From Bacteroidales bacterium (GTDB taxonomy: Bacteria; Bacteroidota; Bacteroidia; Bacteroidales; UBA3663), in NCBI GenBank assembly GCA_024694125.1, contig JAILKE010000038.1, positions 23,933-87,932 of the forward strand: a DNA stretch of 64,000 nt. Reading direction: 5' to 3'. The notes beneath the pieces were generated by a model. That model searched no databases. It was not told the DNA's origin and saw nothing but the letters and a program-made list of their open reading frames with translations. A program made the translations under genes and the position numbers. Shown here piece by piece: positions 13,857 through 24,266 of the stretch; within the stretch, counting starts at the first letter, position 1; each line of letters starts with the position of its first letter.

Positions 13857-15341
13857 ATGAGTTGGAGAGTCTGGCACAAGTGGGCAGGCATACTCCTGGC
13901 CATTCCCATCATGATATTCTGTTTCAGCGGCGTCGTACTGAATCACCGACAGGCGCTGAGCCGATTTGCAGTGTCGCGCAGTTGGTTGCCCGATGCCTAC
14001 CAGATAGAGCATTGGAACCAGGGCGTGGTGCGCGGTTCGCTGTGGCTTTCCGACTCCGTGCAGTTATTGTACGGACAGGTCGGAATGTGGCAGACCGATT
14101 CCGCCATGAGCTATGCCACAGATTACAACGCAGGAGTGACCCCAGGCATAGACAACCGCAAGATAAGCCACGTGGTACGCACAGCCGATGGACAGTTGTG
14201 GGCATCGGGCCTGTACGACGTATGGCGCCGTGATACAGTGTCCGATGCGTGGCAGGCAGTACAGCTGCCCGGCAATGAAGAACGCATCAGCGACATAGCG
14301 CTGCGTGGCGGCGATACCCTGGTGGTAGCCACACGCTCCACGCTCTACACGGCGCACGGACCGGAGTACACGTTCCAGGAGCGTCCCCTACCCTGCCCCG
14401 AGGGCTACACACCGCACACCACACTGTTCAAGACCGTCTGGATGCTGCACAGCGGCGAACTGTTCGGTCTGCCAGGCCGTCTGGTAGTGGATATGCTGGG
14501 CATCGTCCTGTTCATACTCTGCGTGACTGGCATCATCTTCTTCGTGCTGCGCTACACGATACGCGGTGCCCGCAATGCCAAGCAGCAAGCTGGGTGGATG
14601 AAGTGGCAGCTGAAGTGGCACAAACGCCTGGGCACCTGGCTCATCGTGCTCACCGTACTGTTGGCCGTGACCGGCATGTGTCTGCGCCCACCGTTGATGA
14701 TTCCGTTGGTGATGACCGATGTCAAGCCCCTGCCTGGTTCGACGCTCGATGACCCCAATGCCCTGCACGACAAACTGCGCGGCATCCGTTGGGACGAGTT
14801 GCGCCAACAGTGGCTCCTCTCCACCAGCGAGGGGTTCTACTGGCTCGACACGACACTCTGTCAGTCGGCGCCCCAGCCGGCACGCCCTGCTCCTGGCGTC
14901 AGTCCGATGGGCATCACGGTCTTTGAGCCCGATGGTGACGAGTGGTTGATAGGCTCAATGAGTGGTCTATACCGCTGGCAACCGGACTCGGCGCGCATAT
15001 TGGACTTCTATACCGGTCAACCTTACCGACGTCCCACAGGCCGTCCTGTAGGCACACACGCCGTGATGGGCTATCTGCCTGCCACACCCCAACGCGATGC
15101 TGTTGCCTTCGAATATAGTGCCGCGCCCAATGTCGCTATGCCCGATATGCCTACGGAACTGCAGTCACAGCCCATGTCACTGTGGAACTTCGCTCTCGAA
15201 CTCCACGTGGGCCGATGCTATGAACCGTTCCTCGGCTCTGTCGTCTCCGTCCTGTTCGTCTTCATATCGGGATTGCTGCTCGCGCTGATCTTGATCTCGG
15301 GATACATAATCGTCAAGCGACGCACGTCATTTCACAAATGA
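13857..15341 (+). CDS. PepSY-associated membrane protein
   Basis: Inner-membrane protein of 494 residues of the PepSY-TM group, often found beside siderophore and heme uptake genes, where some members are proposed ferric reductases. It begins with WRVWHKWAGILLAIPIMIFCFSG, the typical first helix with its His. Further helices are at about 205-228 (VDMLGIVLFILCVTGIIFFVL), 260-282 (TWLIVLTVLLAVTGMCL) and 460-485. The second pair is preceded by KWHKRLGTW, another family His. The large loops between helices look beta-rich (periplasmic). It precedes the heme lipoprotein by 222 bases of AT-rich repeat. I infer a role in iron/heme handling from the context. Confidence 0.85.
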   Translation: MSWRVWHKWAGILLAIPIMIFCFSGVVLNHRQALSRFAVSRSWLPDAYQIEHWNQGVVRGSLWLSDSVQLLYGQVGMWQTDSAMSYATDYNAGVTPGIDNRKISHVVRTADGQLWASGLYDVWRRDTVSDAWQAVQLPGNEERISDIALRGGDTLVVATRSTLYTAHGPEYTFQERPLPCPEGYTPHTTLFKTVWMLHSGELFGLPGRLVVDMLGIVLFILCVTGIIFFVLRYTIRGARNAKQQAGWMKWQLKWHKRLGTWLIVLTVLLAVTGMCLRPPLMIPLVMTDVKPLPGSTLDDPNALHDKLRGIRWDELRQQWLLSTSEGFYWLDTTLCQSAPQPARPAPGVSPMGITVFEPDGDEWLIGSMSGLYRWQPDSARILDFYTGQPYRRPTGRPVGTHAVMGYLPATPQRDAVAFEYSAAPNVAMPDMPTELQSQPMSLWNFALELHVGRCYEPFLGSVVSVLFVFISGLLLALILISGYIIVKRRTSFHK

Positions 15342-15562: not shown

Positions 15563-16072
15563 ATGAAAATCAAGAATTTCTTGGCCATTATGATGGCCGC
15601 AGTGACTTTGTCAATGAGTGCAGTATCTTGCGATGACGATGATGATGACGACAACGAGACTCTCGCTGAGGAGGTAGCAGACAGCTATCTGGGCGATATG
15701 ACCCTGACAGTAATGGGTTCAGCATCAGAATACGATTCAGTGACTTTCGTGCTCACTGCCGAGACCGACAACACCATCTCGCTCACCACTCCAGCCATCG
15801 GCGAAGGCAGCATGGCATTGCCAGCTCTCACCGTTAATGGCCTCGAACTGACCAAAAACACCGTAGCCGGTGTAGATATCATCACCGTTTCAGTAGACGA
15901 AATCACTGGTTCAATCGAAGTTAACGGCGAGACCAAGAACTACACCTTCTCTGGTCTGAACATTGCTGTTTCACCTGCTGCCGAGACTGCTTCCATCGCC
16001 TACAGCCTGCAGTATGGCAAGATGCCTATGGCTATGGTCGTAGCATTCACCGGTTCAGAAGTAGAAGACTAA
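15563..16072 (+). CDS. hmuY: Calycin-like surface lipoprotein in hmuY position
   Basis: A 169-residue lipoprotein. The signal ends in the lipobox SAVSC (Cys about residue 23), followed at once by a run of seven Asp, the acidic signal associated with surface display of lipoproteins in Bacteroides. The mature part is beta-rich (GDMTLTVMGSASEYDSVTFVLT and similar strands), consistent with the calycin/HmuY-like fold. HmuY of Porphyromonas captures heme at the surface and passes it to HmuR. The heme ligands cannot be assigned; the mature part lacks His but has several Met (KMPMAMVV near the end). The name rests mainly on gene order: it is directly followed by the heme receptor. Confidence 0.72.
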   Translation: MKIKNFLAIMMAAVTLSMSAVSCDDDDDDDNETLAEEVADSYLGDMTLTVMGSASEYDSVTFVLTAETDNTISLTTPAIGEGSMALPALTVNGLELTKNTVAGVDIITVSVDEITGSIEVNGETKNYTFSGLNIAVSPAAETASIAYSLQYGKMPMAMVVAFTGSEVED

Positions 16073-16140: not shown

Positions 16141-18303
16141 ATGATGCAGCGTAGATTTACACTCTCTATAATCCTCAGTGGCCTGGCGTGCAGCCTGGCT
16201 GCTGAGGCTATATCCAACAGCAACACAGCAGCTCCCGATGCCAAGACTGTGGCCGATGCCAAGTCAGAAGCCGACGCCAAGGGCAAGACAGCCACTGCGA
16301 CCACACCCGAGGCCGAACCCGAATGTCGTACCTCTATACTCGACCAGGTAGTAGTGACTGGCACATTGACCCCCAAGACCCTCAAGGACGTGCCCGTAGT
16401 GACCCGCGTCATCACGAGCGACGACATACAGAAGGCCGATGCCACCAACATACAGGATATGCTGGTACAGGAACTGCCCGGTCTGGAGTTCGGCTTCGCC
16501 ATGAGCCAGGAGACATCGCTCAACCTGTGCGGATTCGGCGGCAATGCCGTACTCTTCCTGGTCGATGGCGAACGTCTGGCAGGCGAGACTATGGACAATA
16601 CCGACTACACGCGACTCAACCTGGACAACGTGGGCCGCATCGAGATTGTCAAGGGTGCAGCCTCGGCTCTGTACGGTTCGAATGCCGTGGGCGGTGTAAT
16701 CAACCTCATCACACGCGAGTCGTCGGCTCCCTGGACGCTCAACGTCAACTCGCGATACAACTCCTTCGGCGACGAGTGGCGCAACGGTGCCACGCTGACC
16801 ACGCATCGCGACAAGTGGAGCACGCAGACCAATTTCCAGCAGACCAAGATAGATCCCATCACGCTGACCACCAATGCCAGTTCGCTCGATGACGTGATTG
16901 CCGCCCTGCTCGGACAGACCTCGACATCGACCAAGAAGGACGACTCCGACATCACCCGTCTGTACGGTCAGGAGACATACAATATCAAGGAGCGCGTCAC
17001 CTACCGTCCCAATGACCACCTGCGGCTGACCGCCCGAGGCGGTTATTTCTACCGCGAGAGCCAACGTTCGACCTACGACTATCACTACCACGCCTACAGC
17101 GGCGGACTGAAGGGTGCCTACAACTGGCTGGACGGCCGCACGCTCGAACTGTCGTACGCCTTCGATCAGTATGACAAGGCCAACTACACCCCCGATGGCA
17201 AGCGCACGCACGACCATGACTACACCAACCGTCAGCACGTCGGACACCTGCTCTACAACCAGACCATAGGCGAGAAGCATCAACTCACCGCCGGCGCCGA
17301 TGTGCTCAATGACTATCTGACCACCTATCAGTTCAAGGACAACTGCGCACATCAGCAGACCAATGCCGATGCCTTTGCCCAGTTCGACTGGAATCCCACA
17401 TCGAGCATCAATGTAGTGACCAGCGTACGCTACGATTACTTCTCGGCATCGGAGGCACAGGCCACCACTGCCCGACTGGCCGCCATGTACAAGTGGACCG
17501 ACTTCTCGCTGCGTGCATCGTATGCCGGCGGATTCCGCGCGCCGTCGCTCAAGGAGATGTACATGCACTTCGACATGGGCAACATGGGCTACATGATATA
17601 CGGCAATCCCGACCTCAAGCCCGAGCGCAGCAACAACTTCAACCTCGCTGCCGAACATACCAACAACGTGAATATGGGCAACTGGCTGGACGGTTCGTAC
17701 AGCGTGACCGTAATGGGCTACTGCAACGTATTCGACAAGCGCATCACCACCGTGGGCCGCTGGTGGTACACCGACCCGACTACAGGCGAGACCGTACTTA
17801 CTACCGACGAGGCCGAGGCCAAGACCTACAACCCCGACGGCACCGAGGGTGCACTCTACTACAACGAGGACGGAGTCACTGTGACTGGCATCGACGTGTG
17901 CGCCCAGTACCACCTGGACATGGGTCTGGGGCTCAAGTACAGTTATGCCTACATGCACGAGAGTGGCAATACGGTTGACTCGCAGTTCACCCAGCCCCGC
18001 TCCCACTCCATGACCTGGCGTGCCGACTACGACCGTCAGTTCACCGAGGACTACGGCATCAACCTCGCCCTGTCTGGCCGTTGGGCAGGCAAACCGCAGA
18101 GCGGTCGCACCGACGTGGACCAGGGCTACACCCTGTGCAAGGCCACCCTGCAACAGCGCATCTGGCGCGGCGTACGCGTCAACCTGGCTGTGGACAATAT
18201 TTTTAACTACAAGCCCGACACATACTACTTCAGTTCGCCTATGGTGATAGGTACCACCTGGAGTCTGGGTGTCTCGCTCGACATAGACAGAATGTTCGAA
18301 TGA
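16141..18303 (+). CDS. hmuR: TonB-dependent heme receptor HmuR
   Basis: Outer-membrane receptor of 720 residues that imports heme using TonB energy. After a signal peptide there is a low-complexity segment with repeated DAK words (residues about 33-50), then the TonB-box-like region and plug domain (SILDQVVVTGT, LFLVDGERL, IEIVKGAASALYGSNAVGGVINLIT), then the 22-strand barrel. The heme-receptor signature is intact: FRAP at 465-468, a His at 476, and NPDL at 489-492; in this class the His between FRAP and NPDL is a heme ligand. It ends with an aromatic-terminated strand (DRMFE). The stop overlaps the hmuS start (ATGA), so the two are translationally coupled. Confidence 0.92.
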   Translation: MMQRRFTLSIILSGLACSLAAEAISNSNTAAPDAKTVADAKSEADAKGKTATATTPEAEPECRTSILDQVVVTGTLTPKTLKDVPVVTRVITSDDIQKADATNIQDMLVQELPGLEFGFAMSQETSLNLCGFGGNAVLFLVDGERLAGETMDNTDYTRLNLDNVGRIEIVKGAASALYGSNAVGGVINLITRESSAPWTLNVNSRYNSFGDEWRNGATLTTHRDKWSTQTNFQQTKIDPITLTTNASSLDDVIAALLGQTSTSTKKDDSDITRLYGQETYNIKERVTYRPNDHLRLTARGGYFYRESQRSTYDYHYHAYSGGLKGAYNWLDGRTLELSYAFDQYDKANYTPDGKRTHDHDYTNRQHVGHLLYNQTIGEKHQLTAGADVLNDYLTTYQFKDNCAHQQTNADAFAQFDWNPTSSINVVTSVRYDYFSASEAQATTARLAAMYKWTDFSLRASYAGGFRAPSLKEMYMHFDMGNMGYMIYGNPDLKPERSNNFNLAAEHTNNVNMGNWLDGSYSVTVMGYCNVFDKRITTVGRWWYTDPTTGETVLTTDEAEAKTYNPDGTEGALYYNEDGVTVTGIDVCAQYHLDMGLGLKYSYAYMHESGNTVDSQFTQPRSHSMTWRADYDRQFTEDYGINLALSGRWAGKPQSGRTDVDQGYTLCKATLQQRIWRGVRVNLAVDNIFNYKPDTYYFSSPMVIGTTWSLGVSLDIDRMFE

Positions 18304-21300
18304 AAACCAAAGTCAAGCGCACCCTGCGCATCCTGTTCATCTCCCTGGCTGCCCTCATCATCGTGGGCGGCCTTTGGTTCGTATGGGGCAGATTCTTCAG
18401 CCCTACCCGTATCGCGTTCATCAACTACCAGGCCATCACGTTGGGCCAGATCAACAAGGCCAATGACAATGCCTTCGTCCATATCGAGGTGCTGCCTACC
18501 GACCAGATCGAGCAGCAGGTCGATGACTACGACATGGTATTCGTCAATGGCATGGGCCTGCGCATCACTGCCGAACAGCGTGACGCCATCGAGATGGCCG
18601 GTCTGACCGGCACACCCATCCTGACCACCGCTGCGACCAATCCGCAGAACCTGATCGTCTCGCTCGACAGCATCCAGGCCGATACCCTGACCGCCTACCT
18701 GGGCGGGTCATCGCGCACCAACTACCGCAGCATGCTCAACTACGTGCGTCAGCACATTGACCGCAAGGTGGTCTGTCTGGGCGAGGTACTGCCAGTGGTC
18801 CCCTTGCGCCAATGGATGCTGCGCCACACGGACGTGGAGCATCCCGAACGCGAGGAACGCGGGTTCGACTGCATAGCGCAGTACGAGGCCTACCTCCGTC
18901 AGCAGCACCTCTATCACGAGGGGGCACCATCGGTCATCATCACCGGTGCGATGGGTTCGCCCTACGACCTGTGCGCCGCACTGGAGCAGCGTGGTATGAA
19001 TGCCTATATCCTGGGGCAGATCAATGCACGCACACAGCGTGACGTACTGGACAGCATCCAGCCATCGGCCATCGTCAACTTCGCCCATGGCCGTATGGGC
19101 GACGACATGGTGGACTACCTGACCGAGCAGAACATCCCGCTCTTCTGCCCCCTCAACGTCAACCGGCTCGACACCGAGTGGATGGAGGACAAACAGGGCA
19201 TGAACGGCGGCTTCATGAGCCAGAGCATCGTCACGCCCGAGATAGACGGAGCCCTGCGTCCGTATGCGCTCTTTGCACAGCGCATCGATGCCGATGGACT
19301 GCCCGAACTATACACGATGCCGGACCGCCTCGATTCGTTGGTCCTGACCATACAGCGCTACATCGACCTGAAGCACATGGCCAATGCCGACAAGCGCGTG
19401 GCTATCGTCTTCTTCGGTTCGGCGCAGGACAATGTGCTGGCTGCCTCGAGCCTGGAGGGTGTGCCGTCGCTGTACCACTTCCTGCAGCGGCTCAAGTCCG
19501 AAGGTTACCGCGTGGAGGGACTGCCCGACAGAGTGGAGGACTTCCGTCTGTCACGACGCGACTATGGCAACATAGCCGTGGTGCAGCAGCCCATGGCGGG
19601 CGAGGGAACCGATACCTTTGCCATCGTCCATGGCACGGGAGCCGAACCTCCGTTGGCATTCCAGGAGGCCTACCGCTGGATACGTGAGGACTTCGGCGCC
19701 GATGCGCTCATTCATTTCGGCACCCACGGCGGACTGGAATATACCCCGCGCAAGCAGGTGGCACTCTCCAACCAGGACTGGCCCGACCGCCTGGTCGGCA
19801 CATTGCCCCACTTCTACATATACACGATAGGCAACGTGGGCGAGGCACTGATAGCCAAGCGCCGCACCTATGCCGGCATACAGAGTCACCTGACCGCCCC
19901 CTTCTTGGAGTCGGAACTGCGCAGCCAGTACAAGGAGCTGTGCGATGCTCTGCGCCGTGAGGATGCCACCGCCGTCAAGCGTCTCGCCGTCGGCATGGGC
20001 ATACACCGTGACCTGCACCTGGACTCGGTCCTGACTCAACCCTGGACCAGCGACGAGTTGCACCGTGTCGAGGACTTTGCCGAGGAGTTGGTCAATGCCA
20101 AGATGGTGGGCCAGCTCTATACTCTGGGCACTCCCTACGAACCTGCCCGCATCGAGAGCAGCGTACTGGCCATGGCTACCGACCCGATAGCCTATAGTCT
20201 GCTGGCGCTGGACAAGCAGCTGGGACGCGCCAAGTACGACACGGAGCGGCACAAGGCGCTCTTCACGGCTCACTACATGGCTCCTGCCCGGGAGTTGGTC
20301 ACCCGCATATTGGCCCACCCCGACATGGTGAACGATGCCCTGATATGCCGCACGGCTGGTATCACAGCCCAGCAGTTGGCACGCGCCCGCCAGGTTGATG
20401 ACGACCTGCACCGCCCCATGGACATGATGAGCATGATGCACATGATGTCACAGGCCAAGTCGGACACGGGCCACACGGCCCCGGCTCACCACAGCCACAT
20501 GGCTGCCGGTCATCCTGCCGTGAAGACTTCTGCCCCTGCTGACAGTGCCCGCCAGCCATCGGACATGACTCCCGCACAACGCCCCGACAGTGCCCGTATG
20601 GCTCGTATGCGCGAAGCTGGCAAGAACATGGACCCACGCGACGCACTCAAGATGGCCAAGGCGATGGGTGCTCCTCCCGCTGCACTCAAGAAGATGGCCG
20701 TCGCAATGGGACTGTCAGCCTCGGCTGCCAATGTCAAGGCCGATGCCGACGGCGTGAGCCAGATGATGAAGCGCCTGGCTGCTGCCCGCCCTCACTACAG
20801 TGCCGAGGAGACTGCCCTCTCCCAGGCCATCTGCGAGGTGGCACGCACCATAGAGAACGTCAATGCCTACCGCCGCGGTCTGATGGATGCTCCGGAACAG
20901 GAACTGCAGTCCATGATCAATGCGCTGGCTGGTGGTTATACACGTCCATCGTCGGGCGGCGACGTGGTGAGCAACCCTCGCACCCTGCCTACGGGCCGCA
21001 ACCTGTATGGCATCAATGCCGAGGCCACTCCTACCGAAGTGGCATGGCAGAAGGGCCGTGCCCTGGCCGATCAGACCATCTCTATGTACCGTCGCAATCA
21101 CCACGACAGCATCCCACGCAAGGTGAGCTACACGCTGTGGAGCTCGGAGTTCATCGAGACCGAGGGTGCATCCATCGCGCAGATTCTCTATATGCTGGGC
21201 GTCGAACCCGTGCGCGATGCTTTCGGCCGTGTCACGGACCTGCGCCTCATACCCAGCGAGGAACTGGGACGTCCCCGCATCGACGTCGTGGTGCAGACAT

Positions 21301-22397
21301 CGGGCCAACTGCGCGACCTGGCTGCCTCACGTCTGTACCTGATCAGCCGCGCCGTCTCCATGGCAGCCCAGGCTCAGGACGAAGCCTGGACCAACCAGGT
21401 GGCTGAGGGTGTGCTCGAGTCCGAGCGCTACCTGACCGACCAGGGACTGTCTCCTGCCGAGGCCCGCAGGCTCTCTGCCCGACGCGTCTTTGGCGGTGTG
21501 AACGGCAACTACGGCACCGGCATACAGGGCATGGTGCAGAGTGCCGGTGGATGGCAGGACAGGTCGGAGATAGCCGAGACCTACCTGAACAACATGGGCG
21601 CCTACTATGGCAGTCAGGAGGACTGGGAGCAGCACAGCCAGGCTGCCTTTGCCGCCGCTGTGACCCGCACTGATGCCGTCATCCAGCCCCGGCAGAGCAA
21701 CACCTGGGGCGCACTCTCCCTGGACCATGTGTATGAGTTCATGGGCGGTATGAACCTGGCAGTCGAACACATCACAGGCCATCAGCCCGATGCCTATATG
21801 GCGGACTACCGCAACCGGAACCACAACCGCATGCAGGAGTTGCGCGAAGCCATCGGCGTGGAGAGCCGTACCACTATCTTCAACCCGGCCTATATCCGCG
21901 AGAAGATGAAGGGCGGTGCATCATCTGTATCGGCCATCACCGAGGTAGTGGAGAACTGCTATGGTTGGAGCGTGACCCGACAGGGCACCATCGACCAGCA
22001 GATGTGGGACGAGATATACGATGTCTATGTCGCTGACAAACTGCACATGGGTGTGACCGACTTCATGCAACGGAACAACCCCGCTGCTGTACAGTCCATG
22101 ACATCGGCCATGCAACGTGCTGCCGACCGTGGTTACTGGCGAGCCACTGCCCAGCAGCGCCAGGCCATCGACCAGATGCAGAGTCAGGCTCAACAGGCAC
22201 GACGCGAGTTTGCTGCCTCCCAACCGGATGCTGCCTCCCAGCAAGATGGCATCGTGATGCAGCGCGAGTCTCTGCAGCAAGCAGCTGACTCGACCACCAC
22301 TCTCGTATCGACCGCCGTGGTCATCGCCATCGTCGCGGCTGCTCTGGTCATCCTTCTCGTGCTGATTCGCAAGCGCCGCAAGGAGAACGATGATTGA
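18300..22397 (+). CDS. hmuS: HmuS, CobN/magnesium-chelatase-H-like protein of heme operon
   Basis: Large CobN-family protein of 1365 residues. Such chelatase subunits handle metals in tetrapyrroles; in Bacteroidota heme operons HmuS is thought to act on imported heme, and removal of iron from heme has been reported for a Bacteroides member. It is membrane-anchored at both ends: helix at about 10-32 (LFISLAALIIVGGLWFVWG) and at about 1336-1357 near the C-terminus, with the bulk probably periplasmic. Family motifs include DALIHFGTHGGLEYTP (near 475-490) and RVFGGVNGNYGTGIQGMV (near 1065). An insertion at about 707-830 is Met/His-rich (MDMMSMMHMM, then HHSHMAAGH) and is unlike the rest. No ChlI/ChlD ATPase partner is nearby. 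It overlaps hmuR by 4 bases. Confidence 0.92.
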   Translation: MKTKVKRTLRILFISLAALIIVGGLWFVWGRFFSPTRIAFINYQAITLGQINKANDNAFVHIEVLPTDQIEQQVDDYDMVFVNGMGLRITAEQRDAIEMAGLTGTPILTTAATNPQNLIVSLDSIQADTLTAYLGGSSRTNYRSMLNYVRQHIDRKVVCLGEVLPVVPLRQWMLRHTDVEHPEREERGFDCIAQYEAYLRQQHLYHEGAPSVIITGAMGSPYDLCAALEQRGMNAYILGQINARTQRDVLDSIQPSAIVNFAHGRMGDDMVDYLTEQNIPLFCPLNVNRLDTEWMEDKQGMNGGFMSQSIVTPEIDGALRPYALFAQRIDADGLPELYTMPDRLDSLVLTIQRYIDLKHMANADKRVAIVFFGSAQDNVLAASSLEGVPSLYHFLQRLKSEGYRVEGLPDRVEDFRLSRRDYGNIAVVQQPMAGEGTDTFAIVHGTGAEPPLAFQEAYRWIREDFGADALIHFGTHGGLEYTPRKQVALSNQDWPDRLVGTLPHFYIYTIGNVGEALIAKRRTYAGIQSHLTAPFLESELRSQYKELCDALRREDATAVKRLAVGMGIHRDLHLDSVLTQPWTSDELHRVEDFAEELVNAKMVGQLYTLGTPYEPARIESSVLAMATDPIAYSLLALDKQLGRAKYDTERHKALFTAHYMAPARELVTRILAHPDMVNDALICRTAGITAQQLARARQVDDDLHRPMDMMSMMHMMSQAKSDTGHTAPAHHSHMAAGHPAVKTSAPADSARQPSDMTPAQRPDSARMARMREAGKNMDPRDALKMAKAMGAPPAALKKMAVAMGLSASAANVKADADGVSQMMKRLAAARPHYSAEETALSQAICEVARTIENVNAYRRGLMDAPEQELQSMINALAGGYTRPSSGGDVVSNPRTLPTGRNLYGINAEATPTEVAWQKGRALADQTISMYRRNHHDSIPRKVSYTLWSSEFIETEGASIAQILYMLGVEPVRDAFGRVTDLRLIPSEELGRPRIDVVVQTSGQLRDLAASRLYLISRAVSMAAQAQDEAWTNQVAEGVLESERYLTDQGLSPAEARRLSARRVFGGVNGNYGTGIQGMVQSAGGWQDRSEIAETYLNNMGAYYGSQEDWEQHSQAAFAAAVTRTDAVIQPRQSNTWGALSLDHVYEFMGGMNLAVEHITGHQPDAYMADYRNRNHNRMQELREAIGVESRTTIFNPAYIREKMKGGASSVSAITEVVENCYGWSVTRQGTIDQQMWDEIYDVYVADKLHMGVTDFMQRNNPAAVQSMTSAMQRAADRGYWRATAQQRQAIDQMQSQAQQARREFAASQPDAASQQDGIVMQRESLQQAADSTTTLVSTAVVIAIVAAALVILLVLIRKRRKENDD

Positions 22398-22462: not shown

Positions 22463-23173
22463 TTGTCCCCTATCGAAACATTGGAAACAGTTGTACAGGT
22501 AATAATGGTATTGGTGTACCTGCAGTTCTGCCTGAAGCAGACATTCCTCAAGCCCTGGCAGTGGATTGTGGCGACCTCGGTTTGTACCCTGTTCACAGGA
22601 CTGATATGGCCCTGGAGCATCGAACAGTCGCGCAACCAGATAGCCGAATGGCTCGCTGACCAGCCCTTGATGCTCGACACCTCCGTCGTGCTGTCACTCG
22701 AAGCGCTGTGGCAGATGTCTTTCTGCCTCTTGGCAGGCAGACTGATGTATGACGGTCAGGTGAAGCGGCGCACAGTATGGCTATACCGTGTGCTCCGGTT
22801 CTTCCCCGGCATACTCATTCTGGCAGTGTTGTACTCTGCCCAGGTGTCGCTCATATATATGTTGCCAGGTACGGCATTCGGGACGGTAGCCTGGTCCATG
22901 GCGATAGCGGTGGCTGTGCTGCTGCCATCTATCTCGTGGCTGCTCCGCTGGCTATTACCTGAACGGGACCTGCGCCTGGAGGTGCTCTTTCTCTCATCGG
23001 CTCTGCTGCTCATCCTCGGCATTGTGGCTACGGTCAATGGCACCACCAATTTCCGCGGCCGCGACGATGTGGATTGGCTTGCCCTTGCGGCGGACATCGC
23101 TCTGACATTGACCTGTGCCGCAGCGGGCTTCCTCATCTGGCGTTACCGCAGCAGCAAGAGCATAGGCAAATAG
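22463..23173 (+). CDS. hmuT: HmuT-position integral membrane protein
   Basis: Inner-membrane protein of 236 residues with about six hydrophobic helices (for example VVQVIMVLVYLQFCL, WIVATSVCTLFTGLIW, FFPGILILAVLYS, VAWSMAIAVAVLLPSISWLL). It stands between HmuS and the ExbB-like protein, the place of HmuT in hmu operons, and probably forms a membrane module with them. The listed start is TTG; an ATG 14 codons on (22505) is possible but would cut into the first helix. A conserved-looking FLKPWQWIV follows helix 1. The molecular function is unknown. Confidence 0.75.
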   Translation: MSPIETLETVVQVIMVLVYLQFCLKQTFLKPWQWIVATSVCTLFTGLIWPWSIEQSRNQIAEWLADQPLMLDTSVVLSLEALWQMSFCLLAGRLMYDGQVKRRTVWLYRVLRFFPGILILAVLYSAQVSLIYMLPGTAFGTVAWSMAIAVAVLLPSISWLLRWLLPERDLRLEVLFLSSALLLILGIVATVNGTTNFRGRDDVDWLALAADIALTLTCAAAGFLIWRYRSSKSIGK

Positions 23174-23300: not shown

Positions 23301-23918
23301 ATGTCTCTCCTCTCTGATATTCTCTATTGGATCAGCACCGGACTATTGGTTCCGGTCATCCTTGCATTGATATTCCTTTTCATCCGCTCATTGCTCCTGG
23401 TGGGCAGTTTCTTCGGACAGTATCTGAAGCTCAACAAAGTAGCCGCTCAGGTGCGTCGTGCCCTGACCGATGTCCAGCCGGACAACCTGAATGATGTATT
23501 GACCCGTTTGCCCGAACGTTCCTCTGCCCCAGTCATCGTCTGTATCCGGCAGATGATTGCAGCCCGCAACAACCGCGCCGAACTGCAGCGCCTGCTCTCC
23601 GAGTACGAGATTCAGGCAGACCGGGAACTCTCCACATCGCGCATGCTCACCAAGCTGGGTCCTATGCTCGGTCTGATGGGCACGCTCATCCCGATGGGAC
23701 CAGCCCTGGCTGGACTGGCATCGGGCGACATTGAGTCTATGGCGCGCAACATGCAGGTAGCCTTCGCCACCACGGTGACTGGTCTGGTCGCTGCCGCCAT
23801 TGGTTTCATTACCCAGCAGGTCAAGCAGCGTTGGTTCCGTCAGGACCTCACTAACCTGGAGTATCTTGCCGACGTAATATGCGGCAACGATGCCTGTGGA
23901 ACAAATGACAACAAGTAA
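23301..23918 (+). CDS. hmuU: MotA/TolQ/ExbB-family protein, HmuU position
   Basis: Proton-channel-type inner-membrane protein of 205 residues. Three helices: about 10-32 (TGLLVPVILALIFLFIRSLLLVGSFFG), about 110-135 (TKLGPMLGLMGTLIPMGPALAGLASGD, the ExbB/MotA signature) and about 145-165 (FATTVTGLVAAAIGFITQQ). In ExbB proteins this region carries the ion pathway. Here it is paired with HmuV rather than ExbD, and is thought to serve HmuS or the receptor. It is preceded by the 9-bp array, so translation is not coupled to hmuT. Confidence 0.9.
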   Translation: MSLLSDILYWISTGLLVPVILALIFLFIRSLLLVGSFFGQYLKLNKVAAQVRRALTDVQPDNLNDVLTRLPERSSAPVIVCIRQMIAARNNRAELQRLLSEYEIQADRELSTSRMLTKLGPMLGLMGTLIPMGPALAGLASGDIESMARNMQVAFATTVTGLVAAAIGFITQQVKQRWFRQDLTNLEYLADVICGNDACGTNDNK

Positions 23919-23936
23919 TCAACCATACTCACGACT

Positions 23937-24266
23937 ATGATGCGCAAAAGACATTTCCTGCTCGGCGACACGGACGATGATCCAATGTCGGTCGTTTCCA
24001 ACCTCTTTGATGTGGCTATGGTCTTCGCTGTGGCCCTGATGGTCGCTCTCGTCTCTCGTTACAACATGACGGAGATATTCAGTCAGGAGGATTTCACTAT
24101 GGTCAAGAACCCTGGCAAGGACAATATGGAAATCATTACCAAGCAGGGCGAGACCATCGAACGTTATACTCCAGACGCCGACCCGTCCAACTCCTCTCAA
24201 CGTGGCAAACGAGTCGGTGTAGCCTACCAGCTCGACAACGGCGAAATAATCTACGTACCGGAATAA
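23937..24266 (+). CDS. hmuV: DUF2149 protein, HmuV position
   Basis: A 109-residue protein of the DUF2149 family, regularly found with CobN-like and MotA/TolQ/ExbB proteins. One membrane helix (about 20-42, SNLFDVAMVFAVALMVALVS) follows a short charged N-terminus with LGDTDDDPMSVVSNLFD; the helix bears the Asp of the NLFDVAM segment, reminiscent of the ExbD/MotB channel Asp. The tail is small and soluble (VAYQLDNGEIIYVPE), unlike a full ExbD. It lies 18 bases after hmuU and is the last gene of the operon. Confidence 0.88.
   Translation: MMRKRHFLLGDTDDDPMSVVSNLFDVAMVFAVALMVALVSRYNMTEIFSQEDFTMVKNPGKDNMEIITKQGETIERYTPDADPSNSSQRGKRVGVAYQLDNGEIIYVPE

Follow-up and report, generated by a model that had tools for sequence, protein, structure and literature searches.

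The stretch of DNA analyzed here (64,000 nucleotides from a Bacteroidales bacterium, hereafter the window) holds a gene for a CobN-type protein with a segment dense in methionine, and the question raised by this locus is what such a segment does inside its enzyme. An earlier sequence-only reading had assigned the protein to HmuS and proposed that its clustered Met and His bind copper, heme or ferrous iron, perhaps as a transient site for the released metal. We identify the segment as the methionine-rich insertion (MRI) found in HmuS, a heme dechelatase. The feature is real, conserved and already published; the copy described here comes from a further genome and carries an unusual set of histidines.

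The host enzyme and its operon

To place the segment in its context, we annotated the gene, its key residues and its neighbors as follows, with residue equivalences to Bacteroides thetaiotaomicron HmuS taken from the alignment.

13857..15341, + strand: PepSY_TM protein (PF03929), upstream of the hmu genes
15563-16072: Calycin-like lipoprotein, upstream
16141..18303, + strand: hmuR, TonB-dependent heme receptor (PF00593/PF07715; TonB-hemin subfamily match below its cutoff)
17548-17616: HmuR Met cluster LKEMYMHFDMGNMGYMIYGNPDL
18300..22397, + strand: hmuS, 1365-aa ORF, membrane-anchored heme dechelatase of the CobN/ChlH class
18552..18554, + strand: Met85, equivalent of heme site-1 ligand Met79
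19086..19088, + strand: His263, equivalent of heme site-1 ligand His254
19725..19727, + strand: His476 in HFGTHG, equivalent of catalytic His538
21726..21728, + strand: His1143 in LSLDHVYEFMGG, equivalent of His1209
22463..23173, + strand: hmuT-like inner-membrane protein (TTG start; no Pfam family)
23301..23918, + strand: hmuU, MotA/TolQ/ExbB family (PF01618)
23937..24266, + strand: hmuV, DUF2149 (PF09919, E=9e-35)

Overall, the protein is assigned to HmuS by both sequence and predicted fold. PF02514 (CobN/Mg-chelatase) matches it at E=5.7e-251, with the best stretch spanning residues 413-1286, and the NCBIfam equivalog cutoffs for cobaltochelatase CobN (525.9 bits vs 1248) and Mg chelatase H (499.4 vs 829) are both missed. 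The top PDB match is B. thetaiotaomicron HmuS 9d26 (E=0), to which a predicted model of residues 35-1234 aligns with a TM of 0.81 and 49% identity, and a fold search with the domain IV model returned HmuS as the sole convincing match. Every HmuS signature residue examined is present, i.e., Met85 and His263 at heme site 1 as well as the signatures HFG(T/A)HG and LSLDHxxEFMGG, which appear as HFGTHG and LSLDHVYEFMGG. Both termini carry apolar segments with basic flanks that, by eye from the sequence, form N- and C-terminal membrane anchors.

The nearest sampled relatives share 62% identity over the body of the protein, and a whole-HmuS search of the genome contigs recovered one distant fragment only. 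In the genus of the window, hmuS occurs in only 2 of 15 genomes (G000-G014, which are incomplete), and these two do not group as sisters in the tree, which together suggests transfer or loss.

The hmu genes are present in the order R, S, T, U, V. At the position where hmuY would be expected there is no match to the HmuY family; the place is taken by the Calycin-like lipoprotein, which has homologs in 10 other hmu loci and is a possible candidate for an alternative hemophore. Homologs of the hmuT-like protein were found in 65 fetched loci and lie beside hmuS in those listed. The PepSY_TM protein likewise has homologs in 12 homolog loci spanning at least seven family codes, hmuS-adjacent in most, and is a possible electron donor for heme reduction by HmuS.

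Composition, modules and conservation of the insertion

We aligned 78 homologs from Bacteroidota genomes, built the tree on the body without the insertion, and set the boundaries of the MRI on the alignment of 79 homologs; in the comparison with B. thetaiotaomicron HmuS, it aligns with the published MRI at residues 780-898. The resulting features are listed below.

20406..20774, + strand: MRI, residues 703-825 (123 residues, 18 Met, 7 His)
20418..20447, + strand: N-terminal Met box MDMMSMMHMM, residues 707-716 (family consensus MMxMMMxM; predicted helix 709-721)
20469..20573, + strand: variable linker, residues 724-758 (predicted disordered, pLDDT below 50; alignment gaps in relatives)
20487..20513, + strand: His cluster HHSHMAAGH, residues 730-738, in the variable linker and specific to the window protein
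20589..20708, + strand: Met-rich helical hairpin, residues 764-803 (kept in 32/37 aligned MRI sequences)
20754..20768, + strand: C-terminal Met pair region, residues 819-823 (VSQMM; family MSAMM)

The two peptides that had drawn attention to the segment are thus confirmed in frame, the second about 3 residues later than first placed, as are the CobN-type sequence on both flanks and the Pro/Ala/Met-rich tail, which ends at about residue 825 where about 830 had been given.

Methionine is strongly enriched in the insertion, both in the window and across the family. In the window protein it makes up 18 of 123 residues vs 3.3% of the rest of HmuS (P = 1e-7), and it is clustered: a stretch of 10 residues contains 7 of the 18 Met (P = 0.002, conditional on that total). 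Across 55 core HmuS sequences, Met accounts for 16.0% of insertion residues and 3.1% of those in the body; depletion affects Leu, Ile, Val, Phe, Tyr, Trp and Cys, the last being almost absent. The ratio M/(M+LIVF) accordingly reaches 0.755 in the insertion compared to 0.110 in the body, indicating that Met was chosen over other apolar residues. This enrichment was replicated in 16 held-out HmuS, fetched later from genomes outside the first set (15.8% vs 3.0%). Pairwise retention within the insertion was 63% for Met and 31% for other residues, compared to 42% and 25% in a shuffled control; ORFs from the fetched loci were used as the Met control. The Met positions of the MRI are under strong constraint.

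The insertion is modular and consists of a Met box, a linker, a helical hairpin and a C-terminal Met pair, hence not a featureless stretch of low complexity. Within the box, M713 is Met in 37/37 aligned MRI sequences and in 16/16 held-out ones, and the remaining box Mets are kept in 89-92%. The hairpin follows the consensus MKEMGKGMDPxxALxMAKKMGAxxEALKKMxAAM, in which A786 is invariant and M770, M789, G790 and M799 are near-invariant, and is predicted as three short helices. In the Met pair, M822 is Met in 74% and M823 in 86%. Structural predictions for these modules are of moderate to low confidence: the box helix is seen in the fragment model and has a pLDDT below 50 in the long model, and the hairpin scores ~74-85 and 61-72, respectively. 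A hairpin profile searched against 198 genomes of the order matched HmuS only, and a second copy of the hairpin is found in L041, L042 and L082. The window copy has no Pfam match; those of a duplicated copy were weak, below cutoff and judged to be chance, and PDB matches of the profile other than HmuS, to designed toroid and helical-bundle proteins, were judged to reflect compositional helix similarity.

Histidine behaves differently from methionine. The window protein has the top His fraction among inserts longer than 40 residues, yet its enrichment (7/123) is marginal (P = 0.024, uncorrected), and the tightest cluster, 4 His in 13 residues, gives P = 0.005 at body frequency vs 0.07 given 7 His. 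Across the family, His makes up 1.7% of the insertion and 1.5% of the body, and in L028 and L065, the sisters of the window protein, the insertion contains no His and the cluster is absent. His714, the lone Met-to-His change in the box, occupies a position that is Met in 33/37 aligned sequences. With no family enrichment and a box position that is mostly Met elsewhere, His was rejected as a family-wide ligand. A His-Pro linker motif (25 vs 5.5 expected) was weaker in held-out sequences (4 vs ~1.6), so we dropped it as evidence. Separately, in a distant group (L046, L088 and L089) a His-rich stretch, RRHPHA, lies at the Met-box position; as a lead only, His may replace Met elsewhere too. The extra His of the window protein may add ligands, as a local elaboration outside the conserved design. 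The alignment of relatives that the sequence-only reading had suggested hence divides its proposal: relatives also have the insertion, it is rich in Met there, and the Met positions are conserved, so the Met part stands, while the His part does not extend to the family.

The segment was already known: it corresponds to the MRI that a 2025 study described in HmuS of B. thetaiotaomicron. There, the MRI is a domain IV segment of 120 residues (780-898), 21 of them Met (Nath et al. 2025, PMC12583661), and has no cryo-EM density (PMC12583661). In the same study, an MRI was found in all 680 HmuS surveyed, with a mean length of 82 and a minimum of 22, and was absent from other class I chelatases (PMC12583661). 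The window copy shares with the B. thetaiotaomicron MRI (9D26/9P4S; PMC12583661) its place in domain IV, the Met box, the hairpin motif, the host enzyme and the operon type, and differs by His714 in the box and the His cluster in the linker. A Met-rich domain IV was also noted for Porphyromonas gingivalis HmuS in a 2026 paper (PMC13227078); it is similarly Met-rich, extended, periplasm-exposed and membrane-anchored, in the same enzyme family, but is reported as an extended loop. In L055 and L056, presumed to be Porphyromonas-like, Met-Pro-Lys-Gly repeats stand in place of the box plus hairpin. Our comparison adds to the published MRI its modular anatomy, the invariant Met713, a clade of insertion-free paralogs described below, and the PepSY_TM neighbor as a possible donor.

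Relatives with altered or missing insertions

Next, we examined how the insertion varies across the tree. Its length ranges from 13 to about 190 residues, and inserts of only 19-22 residues may still hold a full or partial Met box (L077, L083 and L084). In L020 and L085, the inserts shrink to 13-15 residues with 2 Met while the site-1 pair is kept, and the Met box is thus not essential everywhere. Eight deep-branching sequences (L026, L046, L057, L058, L060, L061, L088 and L089) carry an insert of ~200 residues that is mostly helix-like and of ordinary composition.

Five proteins (L036, L037, L047, L078 and L079) form a fully supported clade nested within the HmuS tree and offer a natural control. 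HFGTHG is retained in them, as are the two membrane anchors, but site 1 reads Arg or Tyr / Met, EFMGG has become EFTGG, and the insertion is missing. Their neighborhoods point to cobalamin in part: L047 lies near CbiK, a CbiC/tetrapyrrole-methylase fusion and a CobQ-type gene while keeping HmuU/HmuV-type partners, and L036 precedes a CobB/CbiA-type gene; L037, L078 and L079 retain HmuTUV-type neighbors, judged by sequence. The joint loss of site 1 and the insertion, with membrane partners kept, favors a role in heme over docking to HmuTUV-type partners. This clade represents a single evolutionary event, in which the flanking domain IV helices were also lost. In its sister group (L045, L086 and L087), site 1 is Pro/Met and the Met insert is retained; a HmuY gene adjoins L045.

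We also compared the insertion with the receptor. At one HmuR position ahead of the NPDL motif, 39 loci have Met and 14 have His, and the HmuS insert holds 7-28 Met (mostly ≥11) alongside Met-type receptors vs 2-14 alongside His-type ones (Mann-Whitney p = 4e-6). Since shared ancestry reduces these data to 3 independent contrasts, of which 2 are concordant on average and which are not significant, this correlation is suggestive only.

Proposed heme transfer and its alternatives

Sequence comparison indicates that the conserved methionines of the MRI probably handle heme. More specifically, we see about an even chance that the MRI works as a flexible, Met-bearing arm, catching heme in the periplasm and supplying it to site 1, a reading favored by the paralogs as a natural control, by the published position near site 1 and by the periplasmic topology. 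Three elements of this reading are inferred: that heme is the ligand, that transfer runs in this direction, and that the Met box makes the contact. With HmuS anchored in the inner membrane and its body in the periplasm, the Met side chains of the MRI would hold ferrous heme, or a porphyrin face, weakly and reversibly; the arm would pick up heme delivered through HmuR and hand it to site 1 (Met85/His263), from which heme would move to the demetallation site (His476/His1143). In the published structure the MRI lies near site 1, which the authors describe as "possibly fed by the MRI" (PMC12583661).

Precedent for methionine as a heme ligand exists in the same uptake pathway. Met serves as the HmuY heme ligand in the majority of species, with His taking that role in P. 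gingivalis, and Met ligation is favored in reducing conditions (PMC8911585). Met-ligated HmuY proteins (Tfo, Bvu and PinO; PMC8911585) are folded hemophores with two defined Met ligands, however, while the MRI is a disordered arm.

Among the ligands originally proposed for the segment, heme is favored, both by the absence of the insertion in paralogs without the site-1 pair and by the published location, and copper or released iron is less likely. The possibility that the MRI binds released Fe(II) or scavenges Cu(I), which we consider quite unlikely, draws on the resemblance of its MxM, MxxM and Met/His clusters to periplasmic Cu(I)-binding Mets motifs, with seven Met and one His in the ten residues of the window box. 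Free Fe(II) is bound only weakly by thioethers, whose sulfur is better suited to ferrous heme and Cu(I). For copper, the operon offers no copper genes: none was found among the window genes examined at ~13.8-27 kb, where the neighbors are hmu genes. His is moreover not conserved, and loss of the insertion accompanies loss of the heme site. The MRI and the Met-rich motifs of CopM, CusF, CrdA and CopI share clustered Met, in some cases with His, and could work alike as soft-ligand arms, a likeness that entails no claim of homology; unlike them, the MRI sits outside any copper context, inside a heme enzyme, and tracks the heme site. The suggestion of a transient site for the released metal found no support in this analysis.

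A soft Met surface might instead bind iron-free PPIX or a porphyrin face, exporting the product or blocking PPIX aggregation. This seems unlikely to us: Met-faced segments and the hairpin would indeed provide a plastic apolar surface in which Met replaces other hydrophobics, but the choice of Met over Leu, Ile or Val is explained less well in this way than by a thioether ligand. The MRI could also serve docking or regulation, with a protein partner or the membrane surface as its target, since disordered segments rich in Met and Lys and bearing amphipathic helices commonly dock onto partners. We regard this as similarly unlikely, as the paralogs with HmuT/U/V-type neighbors have no MRI, i.e., such partners do not require it, and the insertion is poor in aromatic residues as well as in Leu, Ile and Val. 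Finally, repeat slippage could have produced a neutral low-complexity spacer in which Met richness is incidental, given that the DNA of the window box exactly coincides with a 9-bp tandem repeat (3.3 copies) and that insertion length is so variable. Slippage alone is nevertheless insufficient as the origin of the box because it is conserved across relatives, with single Met positions such as M713 kept across deep divergence and Met retained above other insertion residues, and this largely refuted explanation is highly improbable.

Extending the heme-capturing arm to the pathway as a whole, Bacteroidales Hmu may form a Met-based heme relay, in which a heme-ligand position of HmuR changed from His to Met while HmuS gained its arm in step, the modular arm (box, hairpin, in some cases with the hairpin duplicated) binds ferrous heme and passes it on to site 1, and the arm was lost in the cobalamin-locus paralog; we offer this broader scheme tentatively, as a rather doubtful possibility. 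HmuS, whose family converts heme to PPIX in an NADH-dependent reaction, provides anaerobic gut bacteria with an O2-free extraction of iron from heme, and the comparative results offer points at which the contribution of the MRI can be tested, namely Met713 and the other box Mets, the separable hairpin, and the insertion-free paralog as a natural control.
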